A DNA stretch of 64,000 nucleotides, taken from Sphaerimonospora thailandensis. GTDB lineage: Bacteria; Actinomycetota; Actinomycetes; Streptosporangiales; Streptosporangiaceae. The number at the start of each line of letters is the position of its first letter. Position 1 is the stretch's first letter. Positions 11,727 through 35,043 of the stretch are shown here, one piece after another. The notes beneath the pieces were generated by a model. The model had not been told where the DNA came from, searched no databases, and saw nothing but the letters and a program-made list of their open reading frames with translations. The stretch covers positions 62,001-126,000 of the forward strand of contig NZ_BOOG01000018.1 of assembly GCF_016863115.1 (NCBI RefSeq). Direction: 5' to 3'. A program made the translations under genes and the position numbers.

Positions 11727-11749
11727 GGCGATCCTCCATAGCCGATGAT

Positions 11750-11764: not shown

Positions 11765-11889
11765 GCTTGTGTCCCCTATACGTACGACGATCCGTCACCG
11801 AGCCACGGATGTCAAACGACGTGCGCGGACCACCTGGTAATTGGGGCGAGCAAGGTTGTCCGGGCGCTGTGGATGACGGCGTGCGCCGG

Positions 11890-12588: not shown

Positions 12589-12623
12589 GTGTCGATTATC
12601 CCGCCCACACGGAGAGGGGAGAA

Positions 12624-12687
12624 GCCTACGTTCGACGTAGCCTACGTTCGACGTAGCCTGTATTCGACGTAGCCTGTATTCGACGTA
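12624..12687. repeat. Four 16-bp tandem palindromic repeats upstream of the ATPase gene
   Basis: Four perfectly phased 16-base units: two copies of GCCTACGTTCGACGTA then two of GCCTGTATTCGACGTA, followed by a degenerate fifth. The first units contain the inverted repeat CTACGT-TCG-ACGTAG. The array lies 26 bases before the GTG at 12714 and between divergent genes, so it is best read as an operator array or promoter element. Confidence 0.75.
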
Positions 12688-12713
12688 GGCTACGAGACGT
12701 GTAGGTTGTTCTC

Positions 12714-14087
12714 GTGGGATTCGTCAATCGTACGAAGGAGCTGGCCGCTCTCGAGGACTGGTGGGCGCAGCCGTACCCGCGCCCCGGGCTGATCTGGGGA
12801 CGGCGGCGCGTCGGCAAGACCTCGCTGATCCGCCGGTTCGCGGAAGGGCGAAGGCTCGTCTTCTACACCGGCGCCGGCAGCGCGCCCGCCTTCGAGCTGG
12901 CACAGTTCTCCCGTGAGGTGGCCGCCGCGCTGCCGGACGGGCTCCGGCGACTCGACGTCAACCCCTATCGGGACTGGTACGACGCCTTCGAGCATCTCGC
13001 GGCGCAGGCCGAGCAGGAGCCCCTGCTGCTGGTCCTCGACGAGTTTCCCGAGTTGACCGCGATGTCTCCCGACCTGCCGGGCATCATGCGCGCGGTGCTG
13101 GACCGCATCCAGGGGCGTACGAAGCTGCGCATCCTGCTCAGCGGGTCGTCGGTACGGGCGATGTGGGAGATGCAGGAGTACCGCGCGCCGCTCTACGGGC
13201 GGTTCGACCTCACTCTGCAGCTGCACCCGTTCCGCCCGCACGAGGCGGCGCTGATGCTGCCGAGGCTGTCTCCCGAGGACCGGGCGAGGGTTTACGGGAT
13301 CGTGGGCGGCGTTCCGCTCTACCTGTCGCTGTGGGACCAGGGCGGTTCGATCGAGAGCAACCTGCTCAGACTGGCCATGCGCCCGGGTGCTCCGCTTTAC
13401 AACGAGGGCCGGCTGATCCTCGCCACGGAGCTGGGCGGCGGTCACCAGCCGTCGGCCGTCCTGGACGCGATCGCGGCAGGCAGGACCCGGTTCCACGAGA
13501 TCGGAGACGCGGTCGGCAGTGATCCCACGCGGACCCTCGACCGGCTTGTCGAGCTTCGGCTGGTCGAACGCCTGATCCCGGTGACCGAGGACGAGCGGAA
13601 GTCGAGGCGGAAGATCTACCGCATCGCGGACAACTTCCTCGCTTTCTATCTCGGCCCGCTGATGCGGAACCGCTCGAAGATCGAGATCGGGCTCGGCGAG
13701 ACCATCCTGCCGGTGATCGTCGAAGGGCTCGACGACCATATGGGGGAGATCTACGAGGAGGCATTCCGAGACCATCTGCGGCGTCGCGCGGCCGAGATCG
13801 ATCCGCGCGTCGTGGCCATCGGTCCCTGGTGGGAGGCCGATGGCCAGAACCAGATCGACGCCGTGGTGCTCAGCGGGCGTGGCCGCGAACCCGTCCTGGC
13901 CGGAGAGTCGAAATGGGCCACGACGGTGCAGGCCGGCCGGATCATGCCGAAGCTGATGGCCAAGGCGGCCAGGCTCGTCCCCGATCCCGGCCCCCTGCGG
14001 TACGCCATCTGTGCGCGGACCGAGGTGAAGGACGCCGATCCCGAGATCCTCACGGTCACCGCCGCCGACATCTTCAGCCCGGACTGA
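12714..14087 (+). CDS. AAA+ ATPase with C-terminal DUF234 nuclease-like domain
   Basis: Protein of 457 residues. The P-loop GRRRVGKTSL (29-38) and Walker B LLLVLDEFPEL (about 103-113) define an archaeal-type STAND/AAA ATPase; a sensor-like LLSGSSVRAM follows. A winged-helix region (about 245-300) leads to the DUF234 domain. At the end, Asp382 (QIDAVVL) and Glu398-x-Lys400 (GESKWA) form a PD-(D/E)xK-like active-site pattern. Family function is unknown; a DNA-acting or defence-like role is possible. GTG start with weak ribosome site. The palindromic repeat array directly upstream suggests tight control, and the gene stands alone. Confidence 0.75.
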   Translation: MGFVNRTKELAALEDWWAQPYPRPGLIWGRRRVGKTSLIRRFAEGRRLVFYTGAGSAPAFELAQFSREVAAALPDGLRRLDVNPYRDWYDAFEHLAAQAEQEPLLLVLDEFPELTAMSPDLPGIMRAVLDRIQGRTKLRILLSGSSVRAMWEMQEYRAPLYGRFDLTLQLHPFRPHEAALMLPRLSPEDRARVYGIVGGVPLYLSLWDQGGSIESNLLRLAMRPGAPLYNEGRLILATELGGGHQPSAVLDAIAAGRTRFHEIGDAVGSDPTRTLDRLVELRLVERLIPVTEDERKSRRKIYRIADNFLAFYLGPLMRNRSKIEIGLGETILPVIVEGLDDHMGEIYEEAFRDHLRRRAAEIDPRVVAIGPWWEADGQNQIDAVVLSGRGREPVLAGESKWATTVQAGRIMPKLMAKAARLVPDPGPLRYAICARTEVKDADPEILTVTAADIFSPD

Positions 14088-18933: not shown

Positions 18934-19006
18934 AATTGGGCTATCGTTAATAGCCGGGAAGCGTGCCGTTCATGACTTTCCTACTTTTACCTGGGTGGTA
19001 CTGTTT

Positions 19007-21343
19007 ATGCGCTTCCGGAATTCGCGCGTGCGAACCAAGGTCGCGGCTCTGCTGGTGTCTCTCACAGCGCTGTGGGCGTTCGCGGCCTGGGTCACGCTCC
19101 GGGAGGGCACGAACCTTGTGTGGGCCGCCACGATCAACAGTGACGTCGCCCAACCGGGCGATCTGCTGGTGCTGGACCTGCAGCGCGAGCGCCGTCTGTC
19201 TCTGACCCGGCTCGGCGATCCGGCACGGTTGCCGCGCAAGGATCTCGACGACCAGAGGGCCCGCACCGACAAGATCGTCGCTGAGTTCTCGGAGTCGGCC
19301 CGGAGCGACAACGTCAAAATGGCGGCCGACGACGTGCTCATGTCGCGCATCAACGAGACGATGCGGCGGCTGGACGGCCTGGATGACATCCGCGCCGCCG
19401 TCGACAGCGGGCGGTTCGACCTGACCCGGGCCGATGGCGCCTTCACCGACATCATCGATTCCTTCTACCACCTGTACGACTCGGTCGCCGAGCTGGACGA
19501 CGCCACCGTCGCAAGGGACGGTCGCACGTTCGGCAGGATGAGCCGAGCGCGTGAGGTCCTCGCACGGGAGGACGCGCTGCTCGCGGGCGTCCTCGCGGCG
19601 GGGCGGTTCAGCGAGCAGGATCACCAGCGGTTCACCAGGCTTGTGGCGGTCCATCGGTTCATCCTCGACGAAACCGCGGGGCAGTTGCCCAAGACGGACC
19701 AGGCGGCGTACGAGAAGTGGCGTAAGTCGCCGCAGGTGACCACGTTGCGCAACCTGGAGGACCAGCTCGCCCGATCTGGTCAGGCCGGTCGCATGCCCTT
19801 CGTCACCGACGCGCAGTGGCGGGCCGTCTCCGATCCCGCGCTGGCAGGACTGCAGAAGATCATCGGTGACGGAGGCGAAAGGCTGGTGGAGCGGGCCGGG
19901 GCGGTCGCCGTCAGCGTGATCATCCGGCTGGTGCTGGCCGGCGGGCTCGGGCTGGTCGCGGTCATCGCGTCCATCGTCCTGTCCATCACCACGGCACGCG
20001 CCCTGGTCCGGCAGCTCGAGAAGCTGCGCACGGCCGCGATGGAGCTCGCCAACGAGCGGCTGCCGGGCGTGGTCGCCCGGCTCGCGCAGGGCGAGAAGGT
20101 CGACGTCCGCACCGAGGCGCCGCCGCTCAAATTCGGCAAGGACGTGATCGGCCAGGTGGGCACCGCCTTCAATAAGGTCCAGGAGACCGCGATCCGCACC
20201 GCCGTCGAGGAGGCCCAGCTCCGGCAGAGCATCCGCGACATCCTGCTCAGCCTCGCCCGGCGCACGCAGTCGCTGGTCCACCGACAGCTCACGCTGCTCG
20301 ACGTGATGGAACGGCGCGAGTCCGAGCCGTCCGAGCTGAAGGACCTGTTCCGGGTCGACCACCTCGCCACGCGGATGCGCCGCAACGCGGAGAACCTCAT
20401 CGTCCTGGCCGGCGCGTCGCCGGCGCGGGCCTGGCGCCGATCGGTGCCGATGGTCGACGTCGTGCGCGGCGCCCTCGCCGAGGTCGAGGACTTCACCCGT
20501 GTGACAGTGCCCCCCATGGGGGAGACCGCGCTGTCCGGACGGGCCGTCGGCGACGTGATCCACCTGCTCGCCGAGCTGATCGAGAACGCGGTGTCGTTCT
20601 CCCCGCCGTACACCACGGTGCAGGTCGGCGGCCAGGTCGTGGCCAGCGGCTACGTGATCGAGATCGAGGACCGCGGCCTGGGGATGAGCACCGAAGACCT
20701 GGCGGCCGCGAACGAGCGGATCTCGAATCCGCCGGAGTTCAACCTGACGAGCACGGCCAGGCTCGGCCTCTACGTGGTCAGCAGGCTGGCCGAGCGGCAC
20801 GGCATCCGGGTGGCGCTGAAGGCGTCGCCGTACGGCGGAACCACCGCGATCGTGCTGCTGCCGCGCGACCTGGTCACCGAGGGCGGGAGCGACCCGTCCG
20901 ACGAGGCGACGGATCACAGACGTGGTCCCCTGCAGGAAGGGGGCGCCCGTGAGACCGCGCTCGTGGGTGCGCCCGAGGTGTTCGCAGCACCAGTCCAGGA
21001 GGTGGTTTCCGTACCGAAGCGTGCCCCAGAACCACAGCGGCCCGAACCACAGCGGCCCGAACCACAGCGGTCCGGACCGAAGCTGAGCGAGCCGGCCGGT
21101 GCCGATGTGCCGAGGCCGGAGTCCCCTGCCTCGTTCACCCCGTCCGGCCTGCCGTTCCGCGTGCCGCAGGCGAGCCTGGCGCCGGAGTTGGCCGCCGGGC
21201 CTCCGGCGTCGCTCGCCGACGAGGACGACGAAGATCGATCGCCGGACGAAATCAGAAAGATCATGGGCTCGTTCCAGTCGGGCACCAGACAGGGCAGATC
21301 CGAGGCGGCGAAGCTGCTGGATGAAGGGGGGGACGACCAGTGA
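19007..21343 (+). CDS. cvnA: Conservon histidine-kinase-like sensor CvnA
   Basis: Protein of 778 residues. N-terminal membrane helix (about 12-32), extracellular nitrate/nitrite-sensing-like helical domain (about 35-300), second membrane helix (about 305-330), HAMP-like linker, a kinase core with a clear ATPase domain (N box LIENAVSFSPP, EDRGLGM, and ARLGLYVVSRLAERHGI), then a long Pro/Glu/Arg-rich tail. The tail contains three 15-bp DNA repeats coding PEPQR. First gene of a complete cvnABCD unit, which in Streptomyces forms a membrane-associated heterocomplex likened to G-protein signalling. ATG 19007 has GGTGG upstream. Confidence 0.85.
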   Translation: MRFRNSRVRTKVAALLVSLTALWAFAAWVTLREGTNLVWAATINSDVAQPGDLLVLDLQRERRLSLTRLGDPARLPRKDLDDQRARTDKIVAEFSESARSDNVKMAADDVLMSRINETMRRLDGLDDIRAAVDSGRFDLTRADGAFTDIIDSFYHLYDSVAELDDATVARDGRTFGRMSRAREVLAREDALLAGVLAAGRFSEQDHQRFTRLVAVHRFILDETAGQLPKTDQAAYEKWRKSPQVTTLRNLEDQLARSGQAGRMPFVTDAQWRAVSDPALAGLQKIIGDGGERLVERAGAVAVSVIIRLVLAGGLGLVAVIASIVLSITTARALVRQLEKLRTAAMELANERLPGVVARLAQGEKVDVRTEAPPLKFGKDVIGQVGTAFNKVQETAIRTAVEEAQLRQSIRDILLSLARRTQSLVHRQLTLLDVMERRESEPSELKDLFRVDHLATRMRRNAENLIVLAGASPARAWRRSVPMVDVVRGALAEVEDFTRVTVPPMGETALSGRAVGDVIHLLAELIENAVSFSPPYTTVQVGGQVVASGYVIEIEDRGLGMSTEDLAAANERISNPPEFNLTSTARLGLYVVSRLAERHGIRVALKASPYGGTTAIVLLPRDLVTEGGSDPSDEATDHRRGPLQEGGARETALVGAPEVFAAPVQEVVSVPKRAPEPQRPEPQRPEPQRSGPKLSEPAGADVPRPESPASFTPSGLPFRVPQASLAPELAAGPPASLADEDDEDRSPDEIRKIMGSFQSGTRQGRSEAAKLLDEGGDDQ

Positions 21344-21759
21344 CGCAGCAGACGGGCACGTCCGCCGATCTGGCGTGGTTGCTCGACGATCTCGTCGACC
21401 GGGTCCGGGAGGCCGAGCACGGCATCGTCCTGTCCAGGGACGGCCTGCTGCTGGCCTCCTCGCGCGGACTGCGCATCGAGGACGCCGAGCACCTGTCCGC
21501 CGTGGCCTCCGGGCTGCAGAGCCTGGCCCGGGGCGTCGGCGAGCGGTTCGACGGCGGCACGGTCAGGCAGACGATCGTCGAGATGAAGTCGGCCTACCTG
21601 CTCGTGACCGTGGCCGGACAGGGCGCCTGCCTCGCCGTACTGTGCAGCGGTGACGCGGACGTGGGCCTGGTGGCCTACGAGATGGCCATGCTCGTCGCCC
21701 GTGTGGGGCAGTACCTCACCTCGCCGGCCCGTACGGTGACGAGAGAGGCGCGTGGATGA
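21340..21759 (+). CDS. cvnB: Roadblock/LC7-domain protein CvnB
   Basis: Protein of 139 residues consisting of one roadblock/LC7 fold (LDDLVDRVREAEHGIVLSRD start, then alternating strands and helices). Roadblock proteins regulate small GTPases; here the target is probably the CvnD GTPase two genes downstream. GTG start in a GTGA overlap with cvnA and an ATGA overlap with cvnC, so the four conservon genes are translated as one unit. Confidence 0.9.
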   Translation: MTQQTGTSADLAWLLDDLVDRVREAEHGIVLSRDGLLLASSRGLRIEDAEHLSAVASGLQSLARGVGERFDGGTVRQTIVEMKSAYLLVTVAGQGACLAVLCSGDADVGLVAYEMAMLVARVGQYLTSPARTVTREARG

Positions 21760-22163
21760 GCGGCAACGAGTGGGGCCCGGGTGAATGGGGTGCGGGTGAA
21801 TGGGGTGCCGACGACGACCGGCTGTTCGACGCCCCCACCATCCGGCCGTACGTCATCGCTCGTGGCCGCACCGAGGCACAGGATCGGTTCGATCTGGTCG
21901 CGCTCGCCGTGACGATCCGTCCCACCACCGGGCACGAGGTCGGTCTCGATCCCGAGCACCAGGCGATCGTACGGCTGTGCCGCAGGCCGCTGTCGGTCGC
22001 GGAGATCGCGGCGCACCTGGACCTGCCCGCGGGGATCGTCCGGGTCCTCCTCGGTGACCTGTTCGATCGGGGCTTCGTCGCCGTGCAGCAGCCGCAGCCG
22101 GAGATGGACGTGCTCGACGAGAGAATGTACAAGGCGGTGCTCGATGGCCTTCGGGCGCTCTGA
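21756..22163 (+). CDS. cvnC: DUF742 protein CvnC
   Basis: Protein of 135 residues with the DUF742 domain (about 25-130): APTIRPYVIARGRTEA at the start and a winged-helix-like RRPLSVAEIAAHLDLPAGIVRVLLGDL. The N terminus carries a short repeat, WGPGEWGAGEWGA, encoded by near-identical 15-base units. CvnC proteins bridge the sensor and the GTPase in the conservon complex; the winged-helix pattern may be a protein-binding rather than DNA-binding surface. Overlaps cvnB by 4 and cvnD by 20 bases. Confidence 0.88.
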   Translation: MSGNEWGPGEWGAGEWGADDDRLFDAPTIRPYVIARGRTEAQDRFDLVALAVTIRPTTGHEVGLDPEHQAIVRLCRRPLSVAEIAAHLDLPAGIVRVLLGDLFDRGFVAVQQPQPEMDVLDERMYKAVLDGLRAL

Positions 22164-22731
22164 TCCGCCCAAGATGCCGAAGGCGATCAAACTGTTGATC
22201 GCCGGCGGCTTCGGGGTGGGCAAGACCACGATGGTGGGCGCGGTCTCCGAGATCCGGCCGTTGCGGACCGAGGAGGTCCTCACCGACCGCAGTGTGGGCG
22301 TCGACGACCTGGCCGGGGTGGAGTCCAAGGCCACCACCACCGTGGCGATGGACTTCGGCCGGATCAGCATCGGCGACGAATTCATGCTGTATCTGTTCGG
22401 CACGCCGGGCCAGGAGCGGTTCTGGTTCGTGTGGGACGAGCTCGCCCGGGGCGCGCTCGGCGCCGTGGTGCTGGCGGACACGCGACGACTGGCCGACTGC
22501 TTCCCGTCCGTCGACTATTTCGAACGGCGCGGCACTCCGTTCGTCGTCGCGGTCAACTGTTTCGACGGCGCACCGGTCTTCGAACTCGACGAGGTGAAGC
22601 TCGCGCTCAATCTCGGTGCGGACATTCCCGTCATGCTGTGCGATGCGCGCCGGCGCGAGTCGGGCAAGGAGGTCCTGATAACGCTGGTCAAACACGCGTA
22701 TCACAGGCGCCCAGCAACGCCCGTCGGGTGA
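22144..22731 (+). CDS. cvnD: Conservon GTP-binding protein CvnD
   Basis: Small GTPase of 195 residues with P loop GGFGVGKTTMV, a TVAMDFG switch-I Thr region, G3 FGTPGQERF, and a G4-like NCFD in place of NKxD. The NCFD variant is common among CvnD proteins. It is the switch of the conservon and lies last, starting inside cvnC. Known conservons in Streptomyces influence aerial growth and secondary metabolism, and some are followed by P450 genes; here the P450/terpene operon lies just before the conservon. Confidence 0.9.
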   Translation: MAFGRSDPPKMPKAIKLLIAGGFGVGKTTMVGAVSEIRPLRTEEVLTDRSVGVDDLAGVESKATTTVAMDFGRISIGDEFMLYLFGTPGQERFWFVWDELARGALGAVVLADTRRLADCFPSVDYFERRGTPFVVAVNCFDGAPVFELDEVKLALNLGADIPVMLCDARRRESGKEVLITLVKHAYHRRPATPVG

Positions 22732-23685: not shown

Positions 23686-24663
23686 TTACGAAACGGACAT
23701 GGATTGGAGAATACGGGTGCGATATTCGATGGGAGACTCGCCGTAAGCGGCACGGAATGCCCGGCTGAAGTGCGCGGCGTCGCCGAAGCCCCAACGAGCT
23801 GCGATCGCATGGACTGGACGCGTATGGTGCCGCGGGTCGGCCAGGAACCGCCGGCACTGCTCCAGACGGGACCGTCGGATCCAAGCTGACAGCGTAACGC
23901 CCTGGCCATCGAAGATTTTGTATAGGTAGCGCAGCGAAATTTGGTGCGCTGCGGCGATGGTTTCCGGGCTCAGGTTCGGATCGCCGAGTCGCTGGCGGAT
24001 GTAGTCCCGAATCTGTGCCTGCCGCAGGAGCTTTCGAGATTCCGGAGGCTTCCCGCCATTGCCGGTGAGGCGATGGGACAGCACAGCGGATAACAGGTCA
24101 ACCGTGACCGAGGCCACTGTGTCGGTGTCCTGTGCGCTCAACTCGCCAGCTTGCTGACCGAGTCCGACCAGCCACCGAGCGAACACGCCACCCAGTCCGC
24201 GGCGGCAGGAAAAGGGCACAGCCGCCAGGTGGTCGGCGATGTTCGACGGCAGAGGAAGCCGTTTCCGAGGGATCTGGAGAACCACGGCCGTGGTGGTGCC
24301 CGAAGTACAGGCCCGCCAGCCCTCGAAAGGGCGAGAGGTGTCGATCAGGGTGAAGTTGTCGGCGGTGAGCACCGTTTCCCGCCCCGCTTGACGGATCCCT
24401 GTCTCGCCTTGGAGAACGAGGTGGATTTGCAAGGCTTCCGGATCGCGCTGCCGGATCAACTTCGCGGACCTTCGCACGGTCACCGATGGGTGCGCAAGCG
24501 TGGCGATCTGCATACCCCCCAACTCCATGGCCTGAGTCCGGGCGCGGAAGGTCTCTCTTTGCTCAGTGTGCACCCAGGAAGGGGTAAGGGCATTCCCGCC
24601 ATGTTCGAGCCAGCTCGGGAACCGGTCCCGCGCCGGCAGATGTTCGGTGTCGAACTCGCTCAC
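23686..24663 (-). CDS. AraC-family transcriptional regulator of the lanthipeptide locus
   Basis: Regulator of 325 residues: N-terminal AraC_binding_2-type domain (FDTEHLPARDRFPSW start; about 1-175) and a C-terminal double helix-turn-helix (about 220-320; LSPETIAAAHQISLRYLYKIF and GFGDAAHFSRAFRAAYGESPIEYR). GTG 24663 is chosen because the domain begins there and a GGGGGA site lies upstream; the frame extends to a TTG at 24747 without support. Divergent from lanKC, it is the likely pathway regulator. Two 12-base direct repeats stand directly in front of it. Confidence 0.85.
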   Translation of the reverse strand: MSEFDTEHLPARDRFPSWLEHGGNALTPSWVHTEQRETFRARTQAMELGGMQIATLAHPSVTVRRSAKLIRQRDPEALQIHLVLQGETGIRQAGRETVLTADNFTLIDTSRPFEGWRACTSGTTTAVVLQIPRKRLPLPSNIADHLAAVPFSCRRGLGGVFARWLVGLGQQAGELSAQDTDTVASVTVDLLSAVLSHRLTGNGGKPPESRKLLRQAQIRDYIRQRLGDPNLSPETIAAAHQISLRYLYKIFDGQGVTLSAWIRRSRLEQCRRFLADPRHHTRPVHAIAARWGFGDAAHFSRAFRAAYGESPIEYRTRILQSMSVS

Positions 24664-25000
24664 CAACAAGATCGTCCCCCGTCTCTCTTCAGATGACGCT
24701 CTCTTCGGATGATCTAGGATCGAAGATCCATTTTCAACCGGATTCAAGCTTGTCAGCCTCGTTTACTCAACCCTGGATATACCTGCCAATCTGGGTTTGG
24801 GGTCACATGTACCCTCTTGTCCGATTTTTGGTTACCGGGCCCACGAAGGGCGAGGCGAGTGCGCAGATGGTCAACTGGTGGGCATAAGACATCAAAGACA
24901 TGCCGCTCGTCGAGCGGCAGGATTGCGATCTGAGCGGGGGGGCTCGGGAATCGGTTTCCTATTCGAGAGAACTCCGAGCAGCGGACGAGAATGGTGTATA
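24664..25000. promoter_or_regulatory. Divergent control region between the AraC gene and lanKC
   Basis: 337 bases, AT-richer than average. It contains two direct repeats CTCTTC(A/G)GATGA, at 24685-24696 and 24701-24712 (16-base period), an inverted repeat GGATCGAAGATCC at 24717-24729, and a hairpin TGCCGCTCG/CGAGCGGCA at 24901-24919 that would lie in the lanKC leader. The direct repeats are good candidates for AraC binding. Short open frames here lack ribosome sites; no precursor peptide is seen in this gap. Confidence 0.55.
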
Positions 25001-27580
25001 ATGGCTGACCCTCGGTATGGTGCATACTGCCTCTCCGATCCGGAGTTCTATGATCGGATGGACCGACTTACTTCTGCGGCGGATGAGTTGGCTGTTCACC
25101 AGATGCCACTGCCGGCAGGATGGGCGAGAGAGACTCTGGGGCCGTGGATTACCTACCGGCCTTCGGCGGTGGATATACCATCACAAGGATGGAAGGTTCA
25201 CGCATCGGCGACGGCGCGAAACGCACAGCGGGTGGCTTCCGCCGTGTGGGACTATTGCACGGGCAACGGTATCGCTTTCAAAGTCACCGCAGGCGTCAAG
25301 GAGTACATCTACAGCAACTCCAAGTACGCTGACCGGTCGGCCGGCGGAAAGCTGGCTGTGATCTATCCGACAGACGAAGCGCAGCTGGAGAAGGTCCTCA
25401 CTGAAATGGGATCGGTTCTTCAAGGTGAGGAAGGGCCGTACGTGCTAAGTGACCTTCGTTGGAAGGACGGCCCGCTGTACGTCAGATACGGCGCGTTTCT
25501 GGAACGGACACACGTCGACGAGAATGGTGTGGTGAGGTCTGTCATCGCGGACCCTCGCGGTAATCTTGTTCCCGATCCTCGAGGCCCTGTATTCAGTCCG
25601 CCAGACTGGGTGCACATCCCCGATTTCCTACTGGGAGAGCTTGAACGGCGCGGAGAATCGAAGGTCGAGGATTTTCCTTACCAGATAGTCGATGCGCTGC
25701 ACTTCTCCAACGGGGGTGGCGTATACGAAGGCAGGGACCGCGCGACGGGGCGTAGGCTCCTGATCAAAGAGGCGCGTCCGTATGCGGGCCTGGATACGGC
25801 CGGACGTGATGCGGTCATGCGCCTGCGGGCCGAGCGGGACGTCCTGGAGCAGTTGCAAGGTCTCCCATGCGTTCCCGAACTGGTGAATTACTGCACTCTG
25901 GGCGACCACGAGTTCCTGATCGAGGAGTTCGTCGAGGGGACACCGCTCAATCGGCTCTACGCCGTGAAGACTCCCCTGACTGGCGATCTACGCAATCGGG
26001 CCGAAGTCTCTGAGTACCGCCGGTGGGCTGTGCGTGTGTGGGAGTCGGTCGCCGCCTCGGTACGGGCGGTGAACGGCAGAGGGATCATATTCGGCGACCT
26101 CCATCCTTTCAACATCATCGTTTTCGATAACGGAGAGGAGATACGTACAACCCTTGTCGACTTCGAGGTGAGCTGGCGGGTGGGCGAGGAGCGGCAGATC
26201 ACGCTGGAGCACCCAGGATTCGGAGCGCCGAGGGACAGGCAGGGAACCGATGTCGACGAGTATGCACTGGCTGCCCTGAAGCTCTCCCTCTTCGTGCCGT
26301 TGACGATGCTCGTCCGGTTGAACGTGGAGAAGGCCGGTCACCTCGCCGTAATGATCGCTAAGACCTTCGATGTGCCGCAGAGCTTTCTGGATGACGCCGT
26401 CGCGACGGTCTCCGGCGCTGGCCGGGAAGGCCATGGAAGGTCCAACGATCTCGGTATCGAACTATCAGCCGAGTCGTGGCCGCACACGCGGGACTCTATG
26501 AAGCGGGCGATTCTCGCTAGCGCATCCCTCGACCGCACAGATCGTCTCTTCCCCGGAGATATCGCGCAGTTTGCCGAGGGTGGGGGATTGGCGTTCGCCT
26601 GTGGAGCGGCCGGCATCCTCTGGGCGATGGATATCGCCGACGCGGGGCGTTACCAGGCGGGGGAGCGCTGGCTCATCGAACAGGCGCTGCGCGATCCAGG
26701 CCGGCTTCCGGGTGGTTTCTACGACGGTGCTCACGGGGTCGCCTACGCGCTGTGGAAGCTTGGTCACGGTGATGCGGCGACGGATCTGCTGCGCAGCAAG
26801 ATGAAGGACGACTGGGAACGGTACGGCAACGGCCTCTACGACGGCTTGGCCGGAATGGGACTCAACTGGCTGGCATTCGCCGACGGCACCGGTGACGGGG
26901 CGTACCTGGATCGAGCGGCGCGGATCGCCGACATCTTGCGGCGACGCCTCGGCGGGCCGGAGGACGTGCCGGAGACGAGCGGTGGGGAGGGGCCTGTCGC
27001 CGGGCTCATGCACGGGTCGTCCGGAATCGCGCTTTTCCTGGTGCACATGTTCGAACACACGGGTGAAGAGGCATACCTGAAAAGCGCCCGGACGGCCTTT
27101 GACCAGGACCTCCGCCGATGTGTCGTCGATGACCGCGGAGCGCTCGTGGTCAACGAGGGATGGCGGTCGGTACCGTACCTTCGTGTCGGCAGTATCGGAA
27201 TAGGATTCGCGCTCCGCCACTACCTGCGAGTCCGTCATGACGACGAGCTCCAGAAGAAGCTATCAATGATTCAGACGGCGGCTCAGTCTGACTTCTATGT
27301 ATTTTCCGGCCTATTCGATGGCAGGGCCGGGATGCTCCTGTTCAACGCGACCGCGGGGCAGGCTCGCAGGCCGCTGGAGAATGACGCGGTCATGGCACAG
27401 GCACGAGGCTTGGACTGGCACTCACTTCGGCGTGACGAAGATATCGTGTTCCCCGGAAACGAGCTGCTCCGCTACTCCATGGATCTCGCGACCGGCTCCG
27501 CCGGCGTCATGCTGGCGCTCGCGGCGGCGAACGGCATCCGCAGAGATGGTGAGACCGTCTGTCTTCCGTTCCTGTCCTGA
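25001..27580 (+). CDS. lanKC: Class III lanthipeptide synthetase LanKC
   Basis: Trifunctional enzyme of 859 residues. N-terminal phosphoserine lyase-like domain (about 1-210), Ser/Thr kinase domain (about 225-450) with Gly loop NGGGVYEG, catalytic loop GDLHPFN (about 364-370) and metal DFE, and a LanC-like cyclase (about 515-859) with GxxG turns (YDGAHGV, YDGLAGM, FDGRAGM). The zinc-site CHG of LanC and class IV enzymes reads MHG (Met670), so this is class III. It dehydrates Ser residues of the peptide encoded at 27660 and forms lanthionine or labionin rings. ATG 25001; ribosome site weak. Confidence 0.93.
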   Translation: MADPRYGAYCLSDPEFYDRMDRLTSAADELAVHQMPLPAGWARETLGPWITYRPSAVDIPSQGWKVHASATARNAQRVASAVWDYCTGNGIAFKVTAGVKEYIYSNSKYADRSAGGKLAVIYPTDEAQLEKVLTEMGSVLQGEEGPYVLSDLRWKDGPLYVRYGAFLERTHVDENGVVRSVIADPRGNLVPDPRGPVFSPPDWVHIPDFLLGELERRGESKVEDFPYQIVDALHFSNGGGVYEGRDRATGRRLLIKEARPYAGLDTAGRDAVMRLRAERDVLEQLQGLPCVPELVNYCTLGDHEFLIEEFVEGTPLNRLYAVKTPLTGDLRNRAEVSEYRRWAVRVWESVAASVRAVNGRGIIFGDLHPFNIIVFDNGEEIRTTLVDFEVSWRVGEERQITLEHPGFGAPRDRQGTDVDEYALAALKLSLFVPLTMLVRLNVEKAGHLAVMIAKTFDVPQSFLDDAVATVSGAGREGHGRSNDLGIELSAESWPHTRDSMKRAILASASLDRTDRLFPGDIAQFAEGGGLAFACGAAGILWAMDIADAGRYQAGERWLIEQALRDPGRLPGGFYDGAHGVAYALWKLGHGDAATDLLRSKMKDDWERYGNGLYDGLAGMGLNWLAFADGTGDGAYLDRAARIADILRRRLGGPEDVPETSGGEGPVAGLMHGSSGIALFLVHMFEHTGEEAYLKSARTAFDQDLRRCVVDDRGALVVNEGWRSVPYLRVGSIGIGFALRHYLRVRHDDELQKKLSMIQTAAQSDFYVFSGLFDGRAGMLLFNATAGQARRPLENDAVMAQARGLDWHSLRRDEDIVFPGNELLRYSMDLATGSAGVMLALAAANGIRRDGETVCLPFLS

Positions 27581-27620
27581 CCCATACAGGCTTCCGGGGC
27601 CGCCCGGTTCCGGAGAAGTT

Positions 27621-27641
27621 CCTTCTTCAACCTGAAGAAGG
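27621..27641 (+). promoter_or_regulatory. Hairpin between lanKC and the precursor gene
   Basis: Perfect 9-bp stem CCTTCTTCA / TGAAGAAGG with an ACC loop, 40 bases after the lanKC stop and 7 bases before the AGGAG of the precursor gene. It may act as a processing site or 5' stabiliser that raises precursor mRNA over synthetase mRNA. Confidence 0.5.
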
Positions 27642-27659
27642 AAGAGAAAGGAGATAGAG

Positions 27660-27791
27660 ATGTCCGTGTACGACCTGCAGGGCATGGCCGCCCAGTCCCA
27701 CTCGGTGGGTGCCCTCGCCAACAGCGGTGTCAGCTGGTGGTCCTGTGGAGACCACAAGCCGAGCGAGATCTCGCTCTTCGCCTGCGGTTGA
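27660..27791 (+). CDS. lanA: Class III lanthipeptide precursor (two labionin motifs)
   Basis: Peptide of 43 residues with an excellent ribosome site (AAAGGAG, 6-7 bases upstream). The leader holds the class III recognition motif, VYDLQGM (residues 3-9). The core contains two exact SxxSxxxC motifs: Ser22-Ser25-Cys29 (SGVSWWSC) and Ser35-Ser38-Cys42 (SEISLFAC). Each can form a labionin as in labyrinthopeptins, whose second ring also ends SLFAC. Unlike labyrinthopeptin A2 the rings are joined by GDHKP and there are no extra cysteines for a disulfide. The likely leader/core border is near residue 20. The order synthetase-precursor-transporters matches the lab cluster. Confidence 0.93.
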   Translation: MSVYDLQGMAAQSHSVGALANSGVSWWSCGDHKPSEISLFACG

Positions 27792-27869
27792 TCCATCGGG
27801 CAGTGCCCATTGAGCGAGAGACGGCAGATCTCAGGGTTGCCCGTCGTCTCTCGGTGATGAAATGAAGAG

Positions 27870-27904
27870 GGCGGGTGGTCCAGGTGATAGCTGGACCACC
27901 CGCC
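27870..27904 (+). terminator. Strong hairpin between the precursor and transport genes
   Basis: Perfect 14-bp stem GGCGGGTGGTCCAG / CTGGACCACCCGCC with loop GTGATAG, 78 bases after the precursor stop. A weaker imperfect hairpin (GAGAGAC/GTCTCTC arms) lies just before it at about 27812-27853. Together they probably terminate most transcripts, leaving the export genes at lower level. Confidence 0.75.
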
Positions 27905-27942
27905 TTCCGAAGGTTAGCAAGGTCGGCTAGCGAGGAGACGGG

Positions 27943-28728
27943 ATGACGGCGGAACGTTCGGTGAGGAAAGCAGGACCTGCGAGAGTGGACACGCCCCAAA
28001 ATCCCGTCGTTCTGTTGGCCGATGTGGATGTCACGTACGGAACGGGGTCGGCGGCTGTGGTCGCCCTGCGGAAGGTGAACATCTCCTTCACGGCCGCGGA
28101 GTTCACCGCGGTCATGGGCCCCTCCGGCTCGGGCAAGAGCACCCTGCTGAAATGCGCAGCCGGGTTGATGAGTCCCACATCTGGATCTGTCCGCCTCGGC
28201 GACCTGGAGCTGACGGCAATGCCAGAGGCGGAGCTCGCGGTGGTGCGCCGACGGAAGATCGGGTTTGTGTTTCAGGCGTTCAACCTGCTGCCCGCCCTGA
28301 CCGCCGAGGAGAACATCACCCTGCCGTCGCTGCTGGACAAGCGCGAGATCGACAGGGAGTGGCTGGCCGAACTCATCAGGAAGTTCGGCCTCGAGGAGCG
28401 GACGGGGCATCGCCCCCACGAACTGTCCGGCGGGCAGCAACAGCGGGTAGCCGTCTGCCGGGCGCTGCTGGGCCGTCCCGACGTGATCTTCGCCGACGAG
28501 CCGACCGGCGCTCTGGACAGCCACGCAGGTCAGCAGGTCCTCGACGGGCTGCGGACGGCCGTGGACACCATGGGCCAAAGCGTCGTCATGGTGACGCACA
28601 ACCCAGTGGCCGCCGCGCACGCCGACCGGGTGGTGTTCCTGGCCGACGGTACGGTCGTCGACAAGCTGGAGAAACCCACAAGCGATGCAGTCGCCTCCCG
28701 TATGAACAGGCTGGAGCGACGCGCATGA
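27943..28728 (+). CDS. ABC transporter ATP-binding protein (MacB/LolD type) of the lanthipeptide cluster
   Basis: ATPase of 261 residues with Walker A GPSGSGKST, Q loop FQAFNLLPALTAEEN, signature LSGGQQQR, Walker B VIFADEPTGALD and switch His in VTHN. The sequence is of the MacB/LolD group that works with FtsX-type permeases, and such a permease begins inside its stop codon. GAGGAG lies 7 bases before the ATG. In the lab cluster comparable genes follow the precursor and serve export or self-protection; the same is inferred here. Confidence 0.92.
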   Translation: MTAERSVRKAGPARVDTPQNPVVLLADVDVTYGTGSAAVVALRKVNISFTAAEFTAVMGPSGSGKSTLLKCAAGLMSPTSGSVRLGDLELTAMPEAELAVVRRRKIGFVFQAFNLLPALTAEENITLPSLLDKREIDREWLAELIRKFGLEERTGHRPHELSGGQQQRVAVCRALLGRPDVIFADEPTGALDSHAGQQVLDGLRTAVDTMGQSVVMVTHNPVAAAHADRVVFLADGTVVDKLEKPTSDAVASRMNRLERRA

Positions 28729-31214
28729 TACGCCTGGCGTGGCGCACGATCACCAAGACCAGGAGCACTGTCGTCGGCGCGTTCGCCACGCTCGCGCTCA
28801 CCGGAGCGCTCATCTGCGGAATCGGGTTCCTGCTGGACTCCGGACGGCACTCCCACCTTCCCACGGAGCGGTACGGCGGTGTGCCGATCGTGGTCCATCC
28901 GAAAGACCCGGACATGCGCCGAGGCGCCATCCCTGACGACCTGCTCACCGACCTGCAACGCGTTCAGGGCGTGGAACGGCTGGTTCCTGAACGGACCTTC
29001 CCGGTGAGCCTTCTCGACGATCGGGGGAACCCGGTAGCCGTACCCGGTGCGCGATCGCTCGGCCATGCTTGGGACAGTTCGGTGCTCACGCCGTTCACGG
29101 TTCGGACGGGAGCGCCGCCTTCGAATGAGAACGAGGTCGTCCTGGACGCCCGGCTCGCGGAGCGGAGCGCGGCGCGCCCGGGTCAGTGGGTCATCCTGTC
29201 CGTCAACGGCACCACTGGCAGGTTCCGCGTCGCGGGGGTCGCGAGCGCTGCGGCCGGAGCGGACTGGATCTATCAATCGGCTGTCTTCTTTCACCCCACG
29301 CAGGCCGTACGGCTGAGCGGTACGGGGAACCACGTGGATGCGGTGGGTGTCTATCCGGCCGCGGGCTCCGACACGCTCGTCCTGGCTCGGAGGCTGGACA
29401 GCGTGATCGCTTCCCGGTCTCTTCTGAAGGTGTCGAGGGGAGAGGACCTCGGAGCGGCCGAAGGCAATCTACGTGATGATGCCTCGACGAGTGAATCCGC
29501 AGTCATCACCGTGGCGGTTTTCACGGTGATGCTCTCCGCCGTCGTCCTCACGGGGGCGATGGGTCTGTCCGTGCGACGCAGAGGGCAGCAGATCACACTG
29601 CTGCGTGCGATCGGAGCGACCCCCCGTCAAATCCGGGCGATGCTCGCAGGCGAGGGCCTCCTGATGGCCGTCCTCGCCATGGTGGTCGCTGTGCCGGTGG
29701 GGGCTCTGGTAGCGAACGGGCTGGCCATGTTCTTTGTCGGCATCGGCGCTCTGAGTCCCGCCTTCCGGCTCTCCTACGGGATAGCACCTCCGCTGGAGGC
29801 GGCGGGGATCATCCTGGTGGTTGCTCAGCTCGTCGCGTTGGGCGCCACCCGGCGGGCACTGGCCCATCGCCCTGAGGACGTCATCGGTGAGGTGCAGACG
29901 GAGGGGCGCCGCGTTGGGAGATGGCGGACCGGGATCGGCCTGGTTGCGCTGGCCGGTGCGGGTGCGATGTTCGTTCTGCTCGCCGGTACGGAGGCGGGTG
30001 CCGGAGCAGCCAGCCTGCTTCTTGGGCTCCTCCTGCTCACACTGGTCGCGTTCGGGCTTCTCGGACCCTGGCTGATAATGGGGGTCGCGGCCGCGGGTCG
30101 CCGGAGAGTGCGGCGCAGCGCCTTGGGTTTCCTCGCCGTGGCCAACATGTCGTTCAGCCACCGCCGTTATGCTTCGGTCGCGATTCCCCTGATGGTTGGG
30201 TCGATCCTGGGCGGGGTGCTCCTGGGCATCCAGCCGGTGACAGATCAGCGGATCGCGGAAGAGGGCCGCTCCCACATGCACGGCAGCTATGTCATGACAA
30301 GTGACGGTGGGCTCGCGGAGGCGGTCCGGTCCGCCATCGAGAAGATTCCCGGGGTGGCTGCCGCAGTCGGCCTCGAAGGTCTCCTGCTTCCGACATCACT
30401 GGTCACCGCCGAAGCCCGGGGCCTGGATCGGATCGAGGTGGTGTCCGGTTCCGTCTCCGACATCGCCGACCTGCGATTGACGAAGGGATCACTGGCCGAG
30501 ATGGGGGCCGAAACGGTCGCCGTCAGCACCGCCTATGCCGTCGAACGGAAAGTCACGGTCGGCGACCGGATCGCCATCGTCGCCCCCGGGCAACCGCAGC
30601 CGGTCACACTGCGAGTCACCGCGATCTACGAAAGATACGCCTGGCTCGGAGACGTGCTGGTGGACGTTCGCGCTCTTACCGGCAAGTTTCCGGTCGCTAC
30701 GTACTCTTCTATACATGTACGGCTCACTCCGGGCGGTGATCCGGCCCGCATCGCGGCTGATCTGGGCCGTGCCGGCGGGACCCCGTCATCAATCAAGGTG
30801 AGCGACCAAGACGAATGGCGACGCTGGCTCAGGGACGAGAACAGCAGGTCCAACCAACCGTCGCAACTGCTGATCCTGGTTTTCGTGGCATTCCTGGTGC
30901 TGGCGTCGGCGAACAACCTGCTCGGCTCGTTCGGCGGCAGGGGCGCGGAACTGGACAGCCTTCGGCATCTCGGCGGTACACGGGCGCAGATCCGTACGAT
31001 GCTCGCCTGGGAGTCGGTACTCGTTACAGGTACCGCCTTGGCTGTCGGTGCGGCGGTTACCGTGGCTCTTCTGACCCCGTTCTCGCTGAACGCCGGTGTG
31101 GGATTTCCGCCGATTCCCGCCTCCCTCCTGGTCACGATCGTCAGCGGACCTGTCGCCGTGATGCTCGCAGCCCTCGTGTTCGGCGTGTGGATCACTAGAG
31201 AGGTGACGAGGTGA
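28725..31214 (+). CDS. FtsX/MacB-type ABC permease of the lanthipeptide cluster
   Basis: Permease of 829 residues. An N-terminal membrane helix (about 15-37) is followed by a large extracytoplasmic domain (about 40-255), a first FtsX unit with three helices (about 262-370; VRRRGQQITLLRAIGATPRQI), a helix pair, a second extracytoplasmic domain, and a second FtsX unit at the C terminus (about 710-825; LDSLRHLGGTRAQIRTML). Two FtsX units in one chain are typical of actinobacterial MacB-like exporters. ATGA overlap with the ATPase and GTGA overlap with the next ABC gene give a coupled set of three. Confidence 0.9.
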   Translation: MIRLAWRTITKTRSTVVGAFATLALTGALICGIGFLLDSGRHSHLPTERYGGVPIVVHPKDPDMRRGAIPDDLLTDLQRVQGVERLVPERTFPVSLLDDRGNPVAVPGARSLGHAWDSSVLTPFTVRTGAPPSNENEVVLDARLAERSAARPGQWVILSVNGTTGRFRVAGVASAAAGADWIYQSAVFFHPTQAVRLSGTGNHVDAVGVYPAAGSDTLVLARRLDSVIASRSLLKVSRGEDLGAAEGNLRDDASTSESAVITVAVFTVMLSAVVLTGAMGLSVRRRGQQITLLRAIGATPRQIRAMLAGEGLLMAVLAMVVAVPVGALVANGLAMFFVGIGALSPAFRLSYGIAPPLEAAGIILVVAQLVALGATRRALAHRPEDVIGEVQTEGRRVGRWRTGIGLVALAGAGAMFVLLAGTEAGAGAASLLLGLLLLTLVAFGLLGPWLIMGVAAAGRRRVRRSALGFLAVANMSFSHRRYASVAIPLMVGSILGGVLLGIQPVTDQRIAEEGRSHMHGSYVMTSDGGLAEAVRSAIEKIPGVAAAVGLEGLLLPTSLVTAEARGLDRIEVVSGSVSDIADLRLTKGSLAEMGAETVAVSTAYAVERKVTVGDRIAIVAPGQPQPVTLRVTAIYERYAWLGDVLVDVRALTGKFPVATYSSIHVRLTPGGDPARIAADLGRAGGTPSSIKVSDQDEWRRWLRDENSRSNQPSQLLILVFVAFLVLASANNLLGSFGGRGAELDSLRHLGGTRAQIRTMLAWESVLVTGTALAVGAAVTVALLTPFSLNAGVGFPPIPASLLVTIVSGPVAVMLAALVFGVWITREVTR

Positions 31215-33085
31215 CAGCGGATAGTGGCTTGCTGACTCCGTCCTTACTTCTGAGGCCTTTCCGGACCAGGATTCTGTTTCTCCTGTCGGTGGTCGCCGTC
31301 AACGCGGTGCTCGCCGTCGTGCCGGCGATGCTCGGGCAGCGACTTATCGACGAAGGGGTGCTGGAACACGACCTGTGGCGAATCGGCATCCTGGGCTCTG
31401 CGCTGGTGGCTGTGGGGATCCTGGCAGCGGGGACGACCTTGGTCGAGCGGAGACTGAGATTGAGTCTCGGCGAGGGGGTGGTGGCGACGCTGCGCGTCGA
31501 TCTCTTCGACCATCTCCAACGACAGTCCGCCGGATTCTTCGCCGCATCCAGGACCGGGGCGGTCGTTGCCCGACTCCATGGAGACGTTCAGGGCATACGC
31601 AATGTGATTCACCGTACGCTCCCCACGGTGGCATCCGCGTTGATGACGCTGGTGTTCGCGGGGACCGCGATCATCCTGATCGAGTGGCGGGTAGCTCTCG
31701 CGGTTCTCCTCCTCGCACCGGTCGTATACGGGTTGACAATGGTCTTCGGCAGAGCCCAGCGCCCTCTTGCCCAGCAGGCGCTGGTGGCGACTGCCGATCT
31801 GGACGCGATGGCCGCCGAACGGCTGAGCCCGGGCGGAGCAGAGATCATCCGTCTTTTCGGTGACCGGGACAGGGAGGTCGATCACTTCCGGGGCCGGGCT
31901 CATCGCCTTCGTGATGTGTCGGTCCGTGCCGGGATGATCGAGGCGCGGCTTGGAGTGTCTCTGACCCTGTTGATCGCACTCGTCACCGCGGCTGTTTATG
32001 TCGTGGGTGGGCTTCTGACCACAGTAGGTCACATGTCCGTCGGCGGACTGGTGGCGATGATCGCTCTAATCGCGGGCGTCTACGGGCCTATCACCGCACT
32101 GCCTGGAGCCAAGTTGGAACTGGTCGCGGGGAAGGTCAGTTTTGAGCGTATACAGGAAGTCCTGGATTTCCCTCCTGCGGTCACAGAGCAGCCCAGGGCG
32201 CGGCCGGTTCACGGTTCCTCTGTCACTTTCTCAGATGTGGGCTTCTCATACCCACCGAGGGAATCGAGCGTGCTCGCTTCACTGAGCGTCGAAACTGAGG
32301 AAGGAGCGATGGCGGCGCGTGGCGGTCGTGCCAGAGTCCTCGATGGGATGAGCTTCAGCGTGAGGGCGGGTACCACGGTAGGGATCGTTGGCCGTTCCGG
32401 CACCGGCAAGTCGACGATCGCCCGTCTGCTGACAAGATCATGGGATGTCGATTCGGGTCGGATCGAGATCGGGGGTCAAGATGTACGTGCTGTGACCCTG
32501 TCCTCCCTTCGTCAAGCCGTCGGTGTCGTGACGCAGGATATCTTCCTGTTCAACGACACCGTCAGGGCGAATCTGCTGCTTGCGTCTCCTCGTGCGGACG
32601 AGGACGAGATCGTACGCGCATGCCGTACCGCTCAGTTGTGGGATGTGATCAAGAAGCTTCCCGACGGACTCGACACCGTGCTCGGGGATCGGGGAGTCCA
32701 TCTGTCCGGTGGAGAGCGTCAAAGACTGGCGATAGCCCGCCTGATCCTCAAGGCGCCCGAGATCGTCGTCCTGGACGAGGCGACCGCCCACCTTGACACT
32801 GTCACTGAGAAAGCGATTCAGAAGGCACTCCGGCCGTTCCTGGAGGGGCGAACCTGCCTGGTGATCGCTCACCGACTGTCCACGATTCGTGACGCGGACC
32901 AGATCCTGGTCGTTGACGATGGACGTCTCGCCGAACAGGGAACTCACGACGGACTGATGCGGCGCGGTGGTCTGTACAGTCGACTTGTACGCGAGGCCGA
33001 CGACGCGGATCTGGGCAGGGGCGCGATCGATGGGTGTCACCGCTGCCTTCACACTCATGGCGAACCCGTTAGCCGAGGTGCATGA
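31211..33085 (+). CDS. ABC exporter with fused membrane and ATPase domains (no peptidase domain)
   Basis: Half-transporter of 624 residues: six-helix membrane domain (about 15-300) and ATPase domain (about 335-585) with Walker A GRSGTGKST, signature HLSGGERQR, Walker B EIVVLDEAT and switch His AHRLS. There is no N-terminal C39 peptidase domain, so it cannot remove the leader itself. About 25 extra residues (ESSVLASLSVETEEGAM and following) are inserted between the first strand and the start of the ATPase core. Likely exports the modified lanthipeptide. GTG start in a GTGA overlap with the permease. The C terminus has an unusual Cys/His stretch, GCHRCLHTHG. Confidence 0.9.
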   Translation: MTADSGLLTPSLLLRPFRTRILFLLSVVAVNAVLAVVPAMLGQRLIDEGVLEHDLWRIGILGSALVAVGILAAGTTLVERRLRLSLGEGVVATLRVDLFDHLQRQSAGFFAASRTGAVVARLHGDVQGIRNVIHRTLPTVASALMTLVFAGTAIILIEWRVALAVLLLAPVVYGLTMVFGRAQRPLAQQALVATADLDAMAAERLSPGGAEIIRLFGDRDREVDHFRGRAHRLRDVSVRAGMIEARLGVSLTLLIALVTAAVYVVGGLLTTVGHMSVGGLVAMIALIAGVYGPITALPGAKLELVAGKVSFERIQEVLDFPPAVTEQPRARPVHGSSVTFSDVGFSYPPRESSVLASLSVETEEGAMAARGGRARVLDGMSFSVRAGTTVGIVGRSGTGKSTIARLLTRSWDVDSGRIEIGGQDVRAVTLSSLRQAVGVVTQDIFLFNDTVRANLLLASPRADEDEIVRACRTAQLWDVIKKLPDGLDTVLGDRGVHLSGGERQRLAIARLILKAPEIVVLDEATAHLDTVTEKAIQKALRPFLEGRTCLVIAHRLSTIRDADQILVVDDGRLAEQGTHDGLMRRGGLYSRLVREADDADLGRGAIDGCHRCLHTHGEPVSRGA

Positions 33086-33145
33086 AGCACGCCGCCTATA
33101 TTCGTCGGACTACAACGCCACTGGTTGCCGCCGAGTCCAAAGGAA

Positions 33146-33181
33146 CCCCGCCCCCGGCCGCTGGGATGGCCGGAGGCGGGG
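33146..33181. terminator. Terminator at the end of the lanthipeptide operon
   Basis: A 14-bp stem with one mismatch (CCCCGCCCCCGGCC / GGCCGGAGGCGGGG) and an 8-base loop, followed by a TTGGTTTT stretch. It lies between convergent genes and can serve both strands. Confidence 0.7.
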
Positions 33182-33226
33182 CGGGGGTTGGTTTTCCGGA
33201 GTAGTCGTGGTTTCCGGAGTGGTCTG

Positions 33227-33835
33227 TCAGTTCACCTTGTGCAGGTAGTGGGTGGAGGCCCAGCCCTCCCGGCCGTTCGCTGCCTTCACCGCGGCCCAGC
33301 CGTGCCTGCTGCCGCAGGATCCGACGAACCGCCCGTCGGCCACCCGCAGCCTGCCCACCGGCCGGTAGCGGACGCTCGGACCCCTGCGGACGTTGAGGTA
33401 GCCCTTGTTGTGCACCTTCCTGAGCTGGTAGGCGCACGCGAGGTCGGGAATCCTGATCGCGGGGGTGGAATGCACCCTGTGCAGGTAGCGAGCGTGCGCC
33501 CAGCCGAGCCTGCCGTTCCTGGTCTTGACCGCCACCCAGCCTCTCGACGCTGAGCAGGCACCGGCGAAGCGGCCATTGGCCATGGTCAGCCTGCCCACCG
33601 GCCGATGTTTCACCCCCGGGCCTCTGCGTACGTTGAGGAAGCTGGAGTGGCGGACGTGCCGCACCTTGTAGGCGCAGGTGAGCGCCGGGCGATGCGCCTG
33701 CACGGTGGTTCCGGTCTTCATGGACTGGGGATCGGGGCGGGCCGCGTCGGCCTGGGCGGACGGGCTCGAAATCATGAGCCACCCCGCCGTGGCGCAGGCC
33801 GTGAGCACGGGGATGATCCGTTTGGCGATCGTCAC
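33227..33835 (-). CDS. Secreted protein with two bacterial SH3 domains
   Basis: Protein of 202 residues with a signal peptide (KRIIPVLTACATAGWLMISS and an Ala-rich cleavage site SAQADA), then two SH3b domains (about 50-115 and 130-200). Each has the motif LNVRRGP followed by RPVGRL, a Cys pair (CAYK/CAYQ and GACS/GSCG) and a closing GWA-YLH element. Such domains bind cell-wall peptides. GTG 33835 has GGAG upstream. It stands alone, convergent with the lanthipeptide operon, and is probably not part of it. Confidence 0.85.
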   Translation of the reverse strand: MTIAKRIIPVLTACATAGWLMISSPSAQADAARPDPQSMKTGTTVQAHRPALTCAYKVRHVRHSSFLNVRRGPGVKHRPVGRLTMANGRFAGACSASRGWVAVKTRNGRLGWAHARYLHRVHSTPAIRIPDLACAYQLRKVHNKGYLNVRRGPSVRYRPVGRLRVADGRFVGSCGSRHGWAAVKAANGREGWASTHYLHKVN

Positions 33836-33993
33836 GATGTCTCCCTTCGGTTCGCATCGCTCTCGCCGGGAGGGGTCGGCCATGTGATGTTCACCGAAGG
33901 TTGTTCACCGATTACCCTGTGTTTACACCCGCCCCGCGGGCCTCTCCTTTTCTTTTACCTTCGACCGGCCAGAGGAGCCCAGAAGGGCCGGGG

Positions 33994-35043
33994 TCAGCCG
34001 AGGCCGAGCAGGTCGGCGGCCTGCTCGGCGGCCTCGTCGACGGTGACCTCGGCCACCCACGAGGCGTCGTGGGGGCAGCGCGCCACGGTGAGATCGACCC
34101 CGCTGGCGCCGCAGACCGGGCATGCGGCGGTCCAGGAGACCAGGGGCCGGTGCCGCGTGCGCGTCAGCGGTCCGGCGTTGACGAGGTTGCCGCACCAGTA
34201 GATCCCGATGGTCGGGGTGCCGACGGCGGCGGCCAGATGCCGGGGGCCGCTGTCGTTGGAGATCACCAGTGCGCAGCGCTCGTACAGCGCCGCCAGCCCG
34301 CCGACGCTCAGCATGTCCACGACCTGTACGGACGACGTCCCGGTCGCGGCCGCGACCTCCTCGACCACGTCCCGTTCCTTGCCGGTGCCCGTGATGACGA
34401 CGGGCCGGCCGAGCCGGTCCGCGACGGCGGCGAAGCGTTCGGCCGGCCACCTGCGCCGCGGGTCGCTCGCGCCGGGATGCAGGGCCACCAGTCCGGGCCG
34501 CGGTTCGCCGAGCACACGTGCCAGCTCGGCCCGGTCGGCGTCCGTAACGGCGAGACGGGGCTCGACGGCGTCGGTCGTCGCCCCCACCAGGGATGCCACC
34601 TCCAGGTACCGCAGCACCTCGTGCTGGTAGTACACGTACGGCACCCAGCGGTCGAGGCGTTCGGCGTCGGGGGAGCAGAGCCCGGCGGTCACCCGCGCGC
34701 CCAGCCGCCGCACGAACGGGTTGGAGTAGCGGCCGCCGCCGTGGATCTGCACGGCGAGATCGAATCGGTGACCGCGCAACTCGTCGAAGAGGTCGTCGGG
34801 GGCGCGGTGCCCATCGGCCGCCTCGGACACCCCGGAGATCGGCGGCAGCGCGATCACCTCGTCCACCGGACCGGGCCGGCCCGTGAGGAGGTCGGCGTGC
34901 CAGGACCTGGCGAGCAGGGTGATCCGCGCGACCGGATAGGCGCGGCGCAGCGCCTCCAGCGCGGGCAGCGCCAGCAGCAGGTCGCCGAGCGCGTTGGCGC
35001 GCAGCACGGCGATGCGCCGGACGCCGTCGACCAGCGCGCTCAC
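33994..35043 (-). CDS. Glycosyltransferase family 9 (heptosyltransferase-like)
   Basis: GT-B enzyme of 349 residues. N-terminal RIAVLRANALGDLLLALPALEAL is the typical GT9 opening; the C-terminal donor site has HPGASDPRRRWPAERFAAV and SNDSGPRHLAAAVGTPTIGIY, where the Asp and surrounding residues contact the nucleotide-sugar. A Cys pair, CPVCGAS, near residue 310 is an addition. Actinobacteria lack LPS; such enzymes act on other envelope glycans. GTG overlaps the stop of the upstream GT2 gene (GTGA), so the two enzymes are coupled. Confidence 0.85.
   Translation of the reverse strand: MSALVDGVRRIAVLRANALGDLLLALPALEALRRAYPVARITLLARSWHADLLTGRPGPVDEVIALPPISGVSEAADGHRAPDDLFDELRGHRFDLAVQIHGGGRYSNPFVRRLGARVTAGLCSPDAERLDRWVPYVYYQHEVLRYLEVASLVGATTDAVEPRLAVTDADRAELARVLGEPRPGLVALHPGASDPRRRWPAERFAAVADRLGRPVVITGTGKERDVVEEVAAATGTSSVQVVDMLSVGGLAALYERCALVISNDSGPRHLAAAVGTPTIGIYWCGNLVNAGPLTRTRHRPLVSWTAACPVCGASGVDLTVARCPHDASWVAEVTVDEAAEQAADLLGLG

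Follow-up and report, generated by a model that had tools for sequence, protein, structure and literature searches.

A predicted class III lanthipeptide precursor gene with a Trp-rich core in Sphaerimonospora thailandensis

Described class III lanthipeptides and the lanA gene

Class III lanthipeptide precursors on record combine core motifs of the form Sx2Sx(2-5)C with leaders of the LxLQ/DLQ type (PMC13380574, PMC7268733), and the NCBI SapB/AmfS family comprises more than 4,000 sequences (PMC13380574). Durhapeptin of Streptomyces durhamensis was placed in this family by its authors (PMC13380574); its precursor, DurA, has a DLQ leader and two tandem SXXSXXXC motifs and belongs to a LanKC/transporter cluster, all of which recur at the locus described here. 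A further point of comparison is labyrinthopeptin A2 (LabA2) of Actinomadura namibiensis, which ends in SDWSLWECCSTGSLFACC (PMC13139053).

Both the core motifs and the leader type are present in a short peptide encoded in the window, that is, the whole stretch of 64,000 nucleotides of S. thailandensis DNA that was analysed. Its gene follows a full-length LanKC synthetase gene at a distance of 79 bp, and the features concerned are as follows:

25001..27580, + strand: lanKC, class III lanthionine synthetase with lyase, kinase and cyclase domains, 859 aa from the ATG (MADPRYGAYC)
27647..27653, + strand: Shine-Dalgarno site AAAGGAG of lanA, six bases before the ATG, duplex energy -13.5 kcal/mol
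27660..27791, + strand: lanA, encoding a predicted 43-aa class III lanthipeptide precursor (PF19402, NF033212, conservation in S. mesophila)

The exact translation of 27660-27791 (+) is MSVYDLQGMAAQSHSVGALANSGVSWWSCGDHKPSEISLFACG followed by a stop, laid out as a leader with VYDLQGM and a core of the form ...SGVSWWSC-GDHKP-SEISLFAC-G. The core thus holds two SxxSxxxC motifs, SGVSWWSC and SEISLFAC, whose letters the original prediction had quoted correctly, including the extra Ser28 in ring one. In all, these motifs contain five serines, Ser22, Ser25, Ser28, Ser35 and Ser38. The peptide has two Cys only, Cys29 and Cys42, which are non-adjacent.

The lanA peptide lies above the cut-offs of both Pfam RamS (PF19402; 35.7 bits, cut-off 24.3) and NCBIfam NF033212 (SapB/AmfS family lanthipeptide; 33.9 bits, cut-off 25). 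Since typical members score 60-64 bits with NF033212, it is an outlying member of the SapB/AmfS family. With SapB (RamS) and AmfS it shares the length of the precursor, the DLQ leader, the two C-terminal SxxSxxxC motifs, the adjacent LanKC and, as in the LLLCGDSSLS peptides of relatives, the Gly-Asp after the first Cys of the core. It departs from them, besides its low score, in its VYDLQ (Tyr for the Leu of the LLDLQ found in most relatives), in the Trp-Trp of ring one, in a His/Asn-Lys/Arg-Pro linker, and in a cluster with a MacB-type transporter and an MsbA-like exporter. DurA differs too, in that its core, TGASTASLLSCVSAASVLLCL, is devoid of Trp. With both family models passed and a full-length LanKC encoded upstream, the earlier claim of a class III lanthipeptide precursor adjoining lanKC stands, and we consider it highly probable, on sequence grounds, that lanA at 27660-27791 encodes the precursor of a SapB/AmfS-type class III lanthipeptide. 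The Tyr in the leader, the low family score and a close comparison with a single congener weigh against this reading.

With a length of just 43 codons, the frame could be suspected of being a chance ORF or a decayed gene in the gap between lanKC and the transporter genes. This is extremely improbable given that the cut-offs of PF19402 and NF033212 are passed, that synonymous changes predominate in the comparison with S. mesophila, and that a strict double SxxSxxxC C-terminus among ORFs of 28-75 aa occurs once in the window and in 0 of 60 Markov-model replicas, which places it beyond chance expectation. The same double-motif scan of the window for a second precursor returned only lanA and one unrelated ORF at 7579; a second peptide match within the same genome, on contig C53 (E 0.05), fell inside a frame of 250 aa and was ascribed to chance.

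The S. mesophila lanA (L004:5990-6121) is intact and shares 93% identity with that of the window; it is free of the stops and frameshifts that, in a close relative keeping lanKC, had been named earlier as what would speak against the gene. The 11 changes in 132 bases alter three residues, H32N and K33R in the linker and I37V, and leave the leader, every core Ser and both Cys untouched. These changes correspond to a dN of 0.036 and a dS of 0.32, hence a dN/dS of about 0.11, a rough value because it comes from one congener and few changes. Gene order and spacing around lanA are likewise kept in S. mesophila, where the AraC regulator, a GNAT gene, the ATPase and the permease are syntenic.

The ribosome site, with GAAAGGAGATAGAG directly 5' of the lanA start, had been described as the best of the region. 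This holds for the operon: lanA pairs with the 16S 3' end at -13.5 kcal/mol, as against values of -6.9, -9.2 and -12.1 for, respectively, lanKC, the ABC ATPase gene and the exporter gene at 31211. It does not hold for the region as a whole: several other sites in 20-36 kb equal or beat that energy, and the lanA site falls within the top 30 of 3,616 ATG/GTG sites in the 64-kb window. It had also been expected that so short a gene would fall below annotation cut-offs and be missed. The default minimum of Prodigal is 90 bases, under the 132 bases of lanA. The worry was a fair one, since a RODEO survey of 2020 reported that annotation was missing for 55% of the class III precursors (PMC7268733), but PF19402 and NF033212 now recognise lanA. 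In sum, lanA is a real gene of an ordinary type, encoding an outlying SapB/AmfS class III lanthipeptide from a large known family; what is new in it is the Trp-rich core alone, found in two genomes of one genus among those searched.

The synthetase, the neighbouring genes and the hairpins

LanKC scores 987 bits against NF038151 (cut-off 575) and contains RamC_N (PF25816), kinase-like and LanC-like domains; in the PDB it is closest to enzymes of the LanKC type, among them ThurKC (8sam/8sao/8sap). The NF038151 match begins at residue 74 of a 927-aa ORF that opens at 24797, and this long form is probably over-long, the likely start being the ATG at 25001. In an alignment to ThurKC (8sao/8sap/8sam), the FD of GLFDG is kept at the Phe770/Asp771 site, and no Cys or His stands in the LanKC cyclase at the positions aligned to the zinc ligands (Cys/Cys/His), the ThurKC residues for this comparison being taken from PMC10604976. 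The absence of zinc ligands in this alignment fits the class III requirement.

The genes and predicted hairpins around lanKC and lanA are the following:

23686..24747, - strand: divergent AraC/FeaR-like regulator gene (PF14525, HTH_18)
27619..27643, + strand: hairpin between lanKC and lanA, 11-bp stem TTCCTTCTTCA / TGAAGAAGGAA, just upstream of the ribosome site
27867..27907, + strand: hairpin between lanA and the transporter genes, perfect 17-bp stem, -44.6 kcal/mol, z -5.72
27943..28728, + strand: ABC transporter ATPase of the MacB/LolD type (PF00005, 113.6 bits)
28725..31214, + strand: FtsX/MacB-type permease (PF02687, 52.2 bits; PF12704, 45.3 bits)
31211..33085, + strand: second ABC exporter, MsbA-like, with fused membrane and ATPase domains (PF00664, PF00005)

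The closest NCBIfam models of the ATPase are MacB, DevA and LolD, each below its own cut-off. The ATG of the permease at 28725 overlaps the 3' end of the ATPase gene, and the exporter gene overlaps the permease gene by 4 bp. The AraC/FeaR-like gene, syntenic in S. mesophila with 77% identity, is a candidate regulator of the pathway, and no protease gene was recognised between it and the second exporter.

The hairpin that follows lanA is near-identical in S. mesophila and is without a clear U run; it is possibly terminator- or attenuator-like. The hairpin that precedes lanA has a fold z of -2.66 in the window and of -1.05 in S. mesophila (L004), which keeps the pairing via a G-U, and it counts for little as evidence because the S. 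mesophila fold is no better than shuffles. Together, the two hairpins may govern how much precursor is made relative to transporter. A search for Rfam families in 24000-34000 found none. Elsewhere in the window, at 18995-22731 (+), a run of four genes (a NIT-sensor histidine kinase, a 139-aa ORF, DUF742 and a P-loop GTPase-like ORF) resembles a Streptomyces-type conservon (cvn).

Proposed maturation and possible roles of the product

The maturation proposed here is drawn by analogy from described systems (PMC7268733, PMC10604976, PMC13380574). The leader of the lanA peptide, with its DLQ helix, would be bound by the LanKC encoded upstream, whose kinase and lyase would phosphorylate the core serines and eliminate the phosphate to yield dehydroalanines. 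In each SxxSxxxC, the metal-free cyclase would then link the Cys with the two Ser to close a lanthionine or labionin ring, two rings in all. Export of the product would fall to the MacB-type transporter, the MsbA-like exporter or both. Since no protease was recognised in the cluster, the leader would probably be removed by an AplP-like M1 peptidase encoded elsewhere, as happens in other actinomycetes (PMC10885120). On this footing we infer the modification, ring type, export, cleavage and activity of the lanA product.

What that activity might be has to be considered together with a second class III locus of the same genome, on contig C19 (G000, L046). There, a LanKC (about 10072-12924, - strand; 1,075 bits) and two LLDLQ precursors occur together with a pair of ABC transporter ORFs and a LuxR-type response regulator; the precursors carry SLLAC, one residue off the SLFAC of lanA. 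This is likely the SapB-type locus of the genome, and because it resembles the usual SapB/ram-type locus of the family, the cluster in the window would probably be an additional, specialised one.

It seems less likely than not that the lanA product is itself a SapB/AmfS-type developmental surfactant, a morphogen made at aerial growth. Such a role would agree with the assignment to the SapB/AmfS family (PF19402, NF033212) and with the finding that aerial hyphae are induced by a variant of durhapeptin, a peptide that shares the tandem motif (PMC13380574), although this morphogenetic activity belongs to that variant. Against it stand the more ram-like C19 locus already present in the genome, the occurrence of the lanA core in two genomes of one genus in the searched sets, when LLDLQ peptides are widespread in the family, and the MacB-type pair plus one exporter in place of the two tandem ABC ORFs of C19.

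LabA2, which also matches NF033212 and PF19402, agrees with the lanA peptide in the SxxSxxxC spacing of both rings, in having a Trp in the first ring and in the SLFAC of the second. The original prediction had pointed to the common SLFAC, and its letters are correct, but the resemblance is one of five residues between precursors that BLASTP leaves unaligned and that fall within the same broad family model. The BLASTP comparison of the lanA and LabA2 precursors gave no alignment at E <= 100, and neither did that of the lanA and C19 precursors; as the latter is a family member, this pairwise test says little either way for such short peptides. Compared with LabA2, whose leader has LELQ, the lanA peptide has a longer linker from motif to motif and is devoid of Cys-Cys pairs. 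Labyrinthopeptins carry a disulfide besides their two labionins. The Cys-Cys pairs of a labyrinthopeptin in the strict sense are thus not found in a peptide with Cys29 and Cys42 only.

We tentatively entertain, at somewhat less than an even chance, that the product is a labyrinthopeptin-like bioactive whose Trp-rich rings would be two labionins and which would act on membranes or other cells and not as a developmental surfactant. The spacing, the Trp and the SLFAC common to LabA2 argue for this, as does the separate locus on C19, which is the more SapB/ram-like of the two, so that the lanA locus need not be that of a morphogen. The lack of a BLASTP alignment, the missing Cys-Cys pairs and the membership of both peptides in one broad family model argue the other way.

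Ser28 may or may not be dehydrated, and durhapeptin offers a caution here: in E. coli, glutathione trapped an additional Dha (PMC13380574). It is doubtful, and in our estimate quite improbable, that a genus-restricted lanthipeptide with a Trp-Trp ring one and a dehydratable Ser28 would have both an undescribed ring chemistry and a function apart from the SapB-like locus. If it did, the chemistry might consist, for example, of a labionin plus a free dehydroalanine, or of an alternative Ser25/Ser28-to-Cys bridge.

A third LanKC-like protein of the genome is encoded at C39:20401-22197 (G000; L038/L048). No precursor was recognised near its gene, and the protein covers model positions 213-832 only, without the N-terminal lyase part.

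Distribution of the family and of the Trp-rich core

Returning to lanA as an outlying member of the SapB/AmfS family, we found that 138 of the 250 genomes from its bacterial family encode RamS-family peptides, and at the loci examined there such peptides usually adjoin LanKC. Trp occurs in 5 of the 93 distinct family precursors collected, and a Trp-Trp within a ring only in the two from Sphaerimonospora. When a profile of these two peptides was searched against the sets of relatives, the order and the class, strong matches came from the same genus only. With two near-identical rows as its sole input, this profile is narrow, and more distant Trp-rich cores could escape it. A plasmid search gave zero matches, and a literature search found neither the core sequence nor a pairing of Sphaerimonospora with lanthipeptides.

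The weaker matches were set aside. In the order-wide search, eight of them (E 2.8e-5 to 8e-4) were ordinary LLDLQ members with GLT..TC or PSNLS..LC cores, and the weak partial matches of the class-wide profile search of 394 genomes (E 0.0026 to 0.0076 per genome) were taken as chance.

The gene leaves the picture of the family unchanged; it extends the catalogue of class III lanthipeptides by a core that is rich in Trp and apparently restricted to one genus. It adjoins a complete synthetase and transporter set that could be expressed in a laboratory host, and its main use is as a candidate product and as a test of LanKC on a third Ser within a ring.

Two further LanKC loci were observed in the course of these searches. 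Outside the genus, the closest LanKC (50%; G013, L080:7906-10512, - strand) has no RamS-type peptide recognised adjacent to it; near it on the opposite strand, at L080:6023 (+), lies a 56-aa ORF (MSDFDLDPEVDRHP...) similar to class I lanthipeptide precursors. At the LanKC locus of Microbacterium azadirachtae (L005:11537, + strand), the adjacent short peptide MSALLSLQGLSNESEPEAGLFGSGISIWCDGNNSGISISCGPN is a Trp-containing, class III-like candidate.
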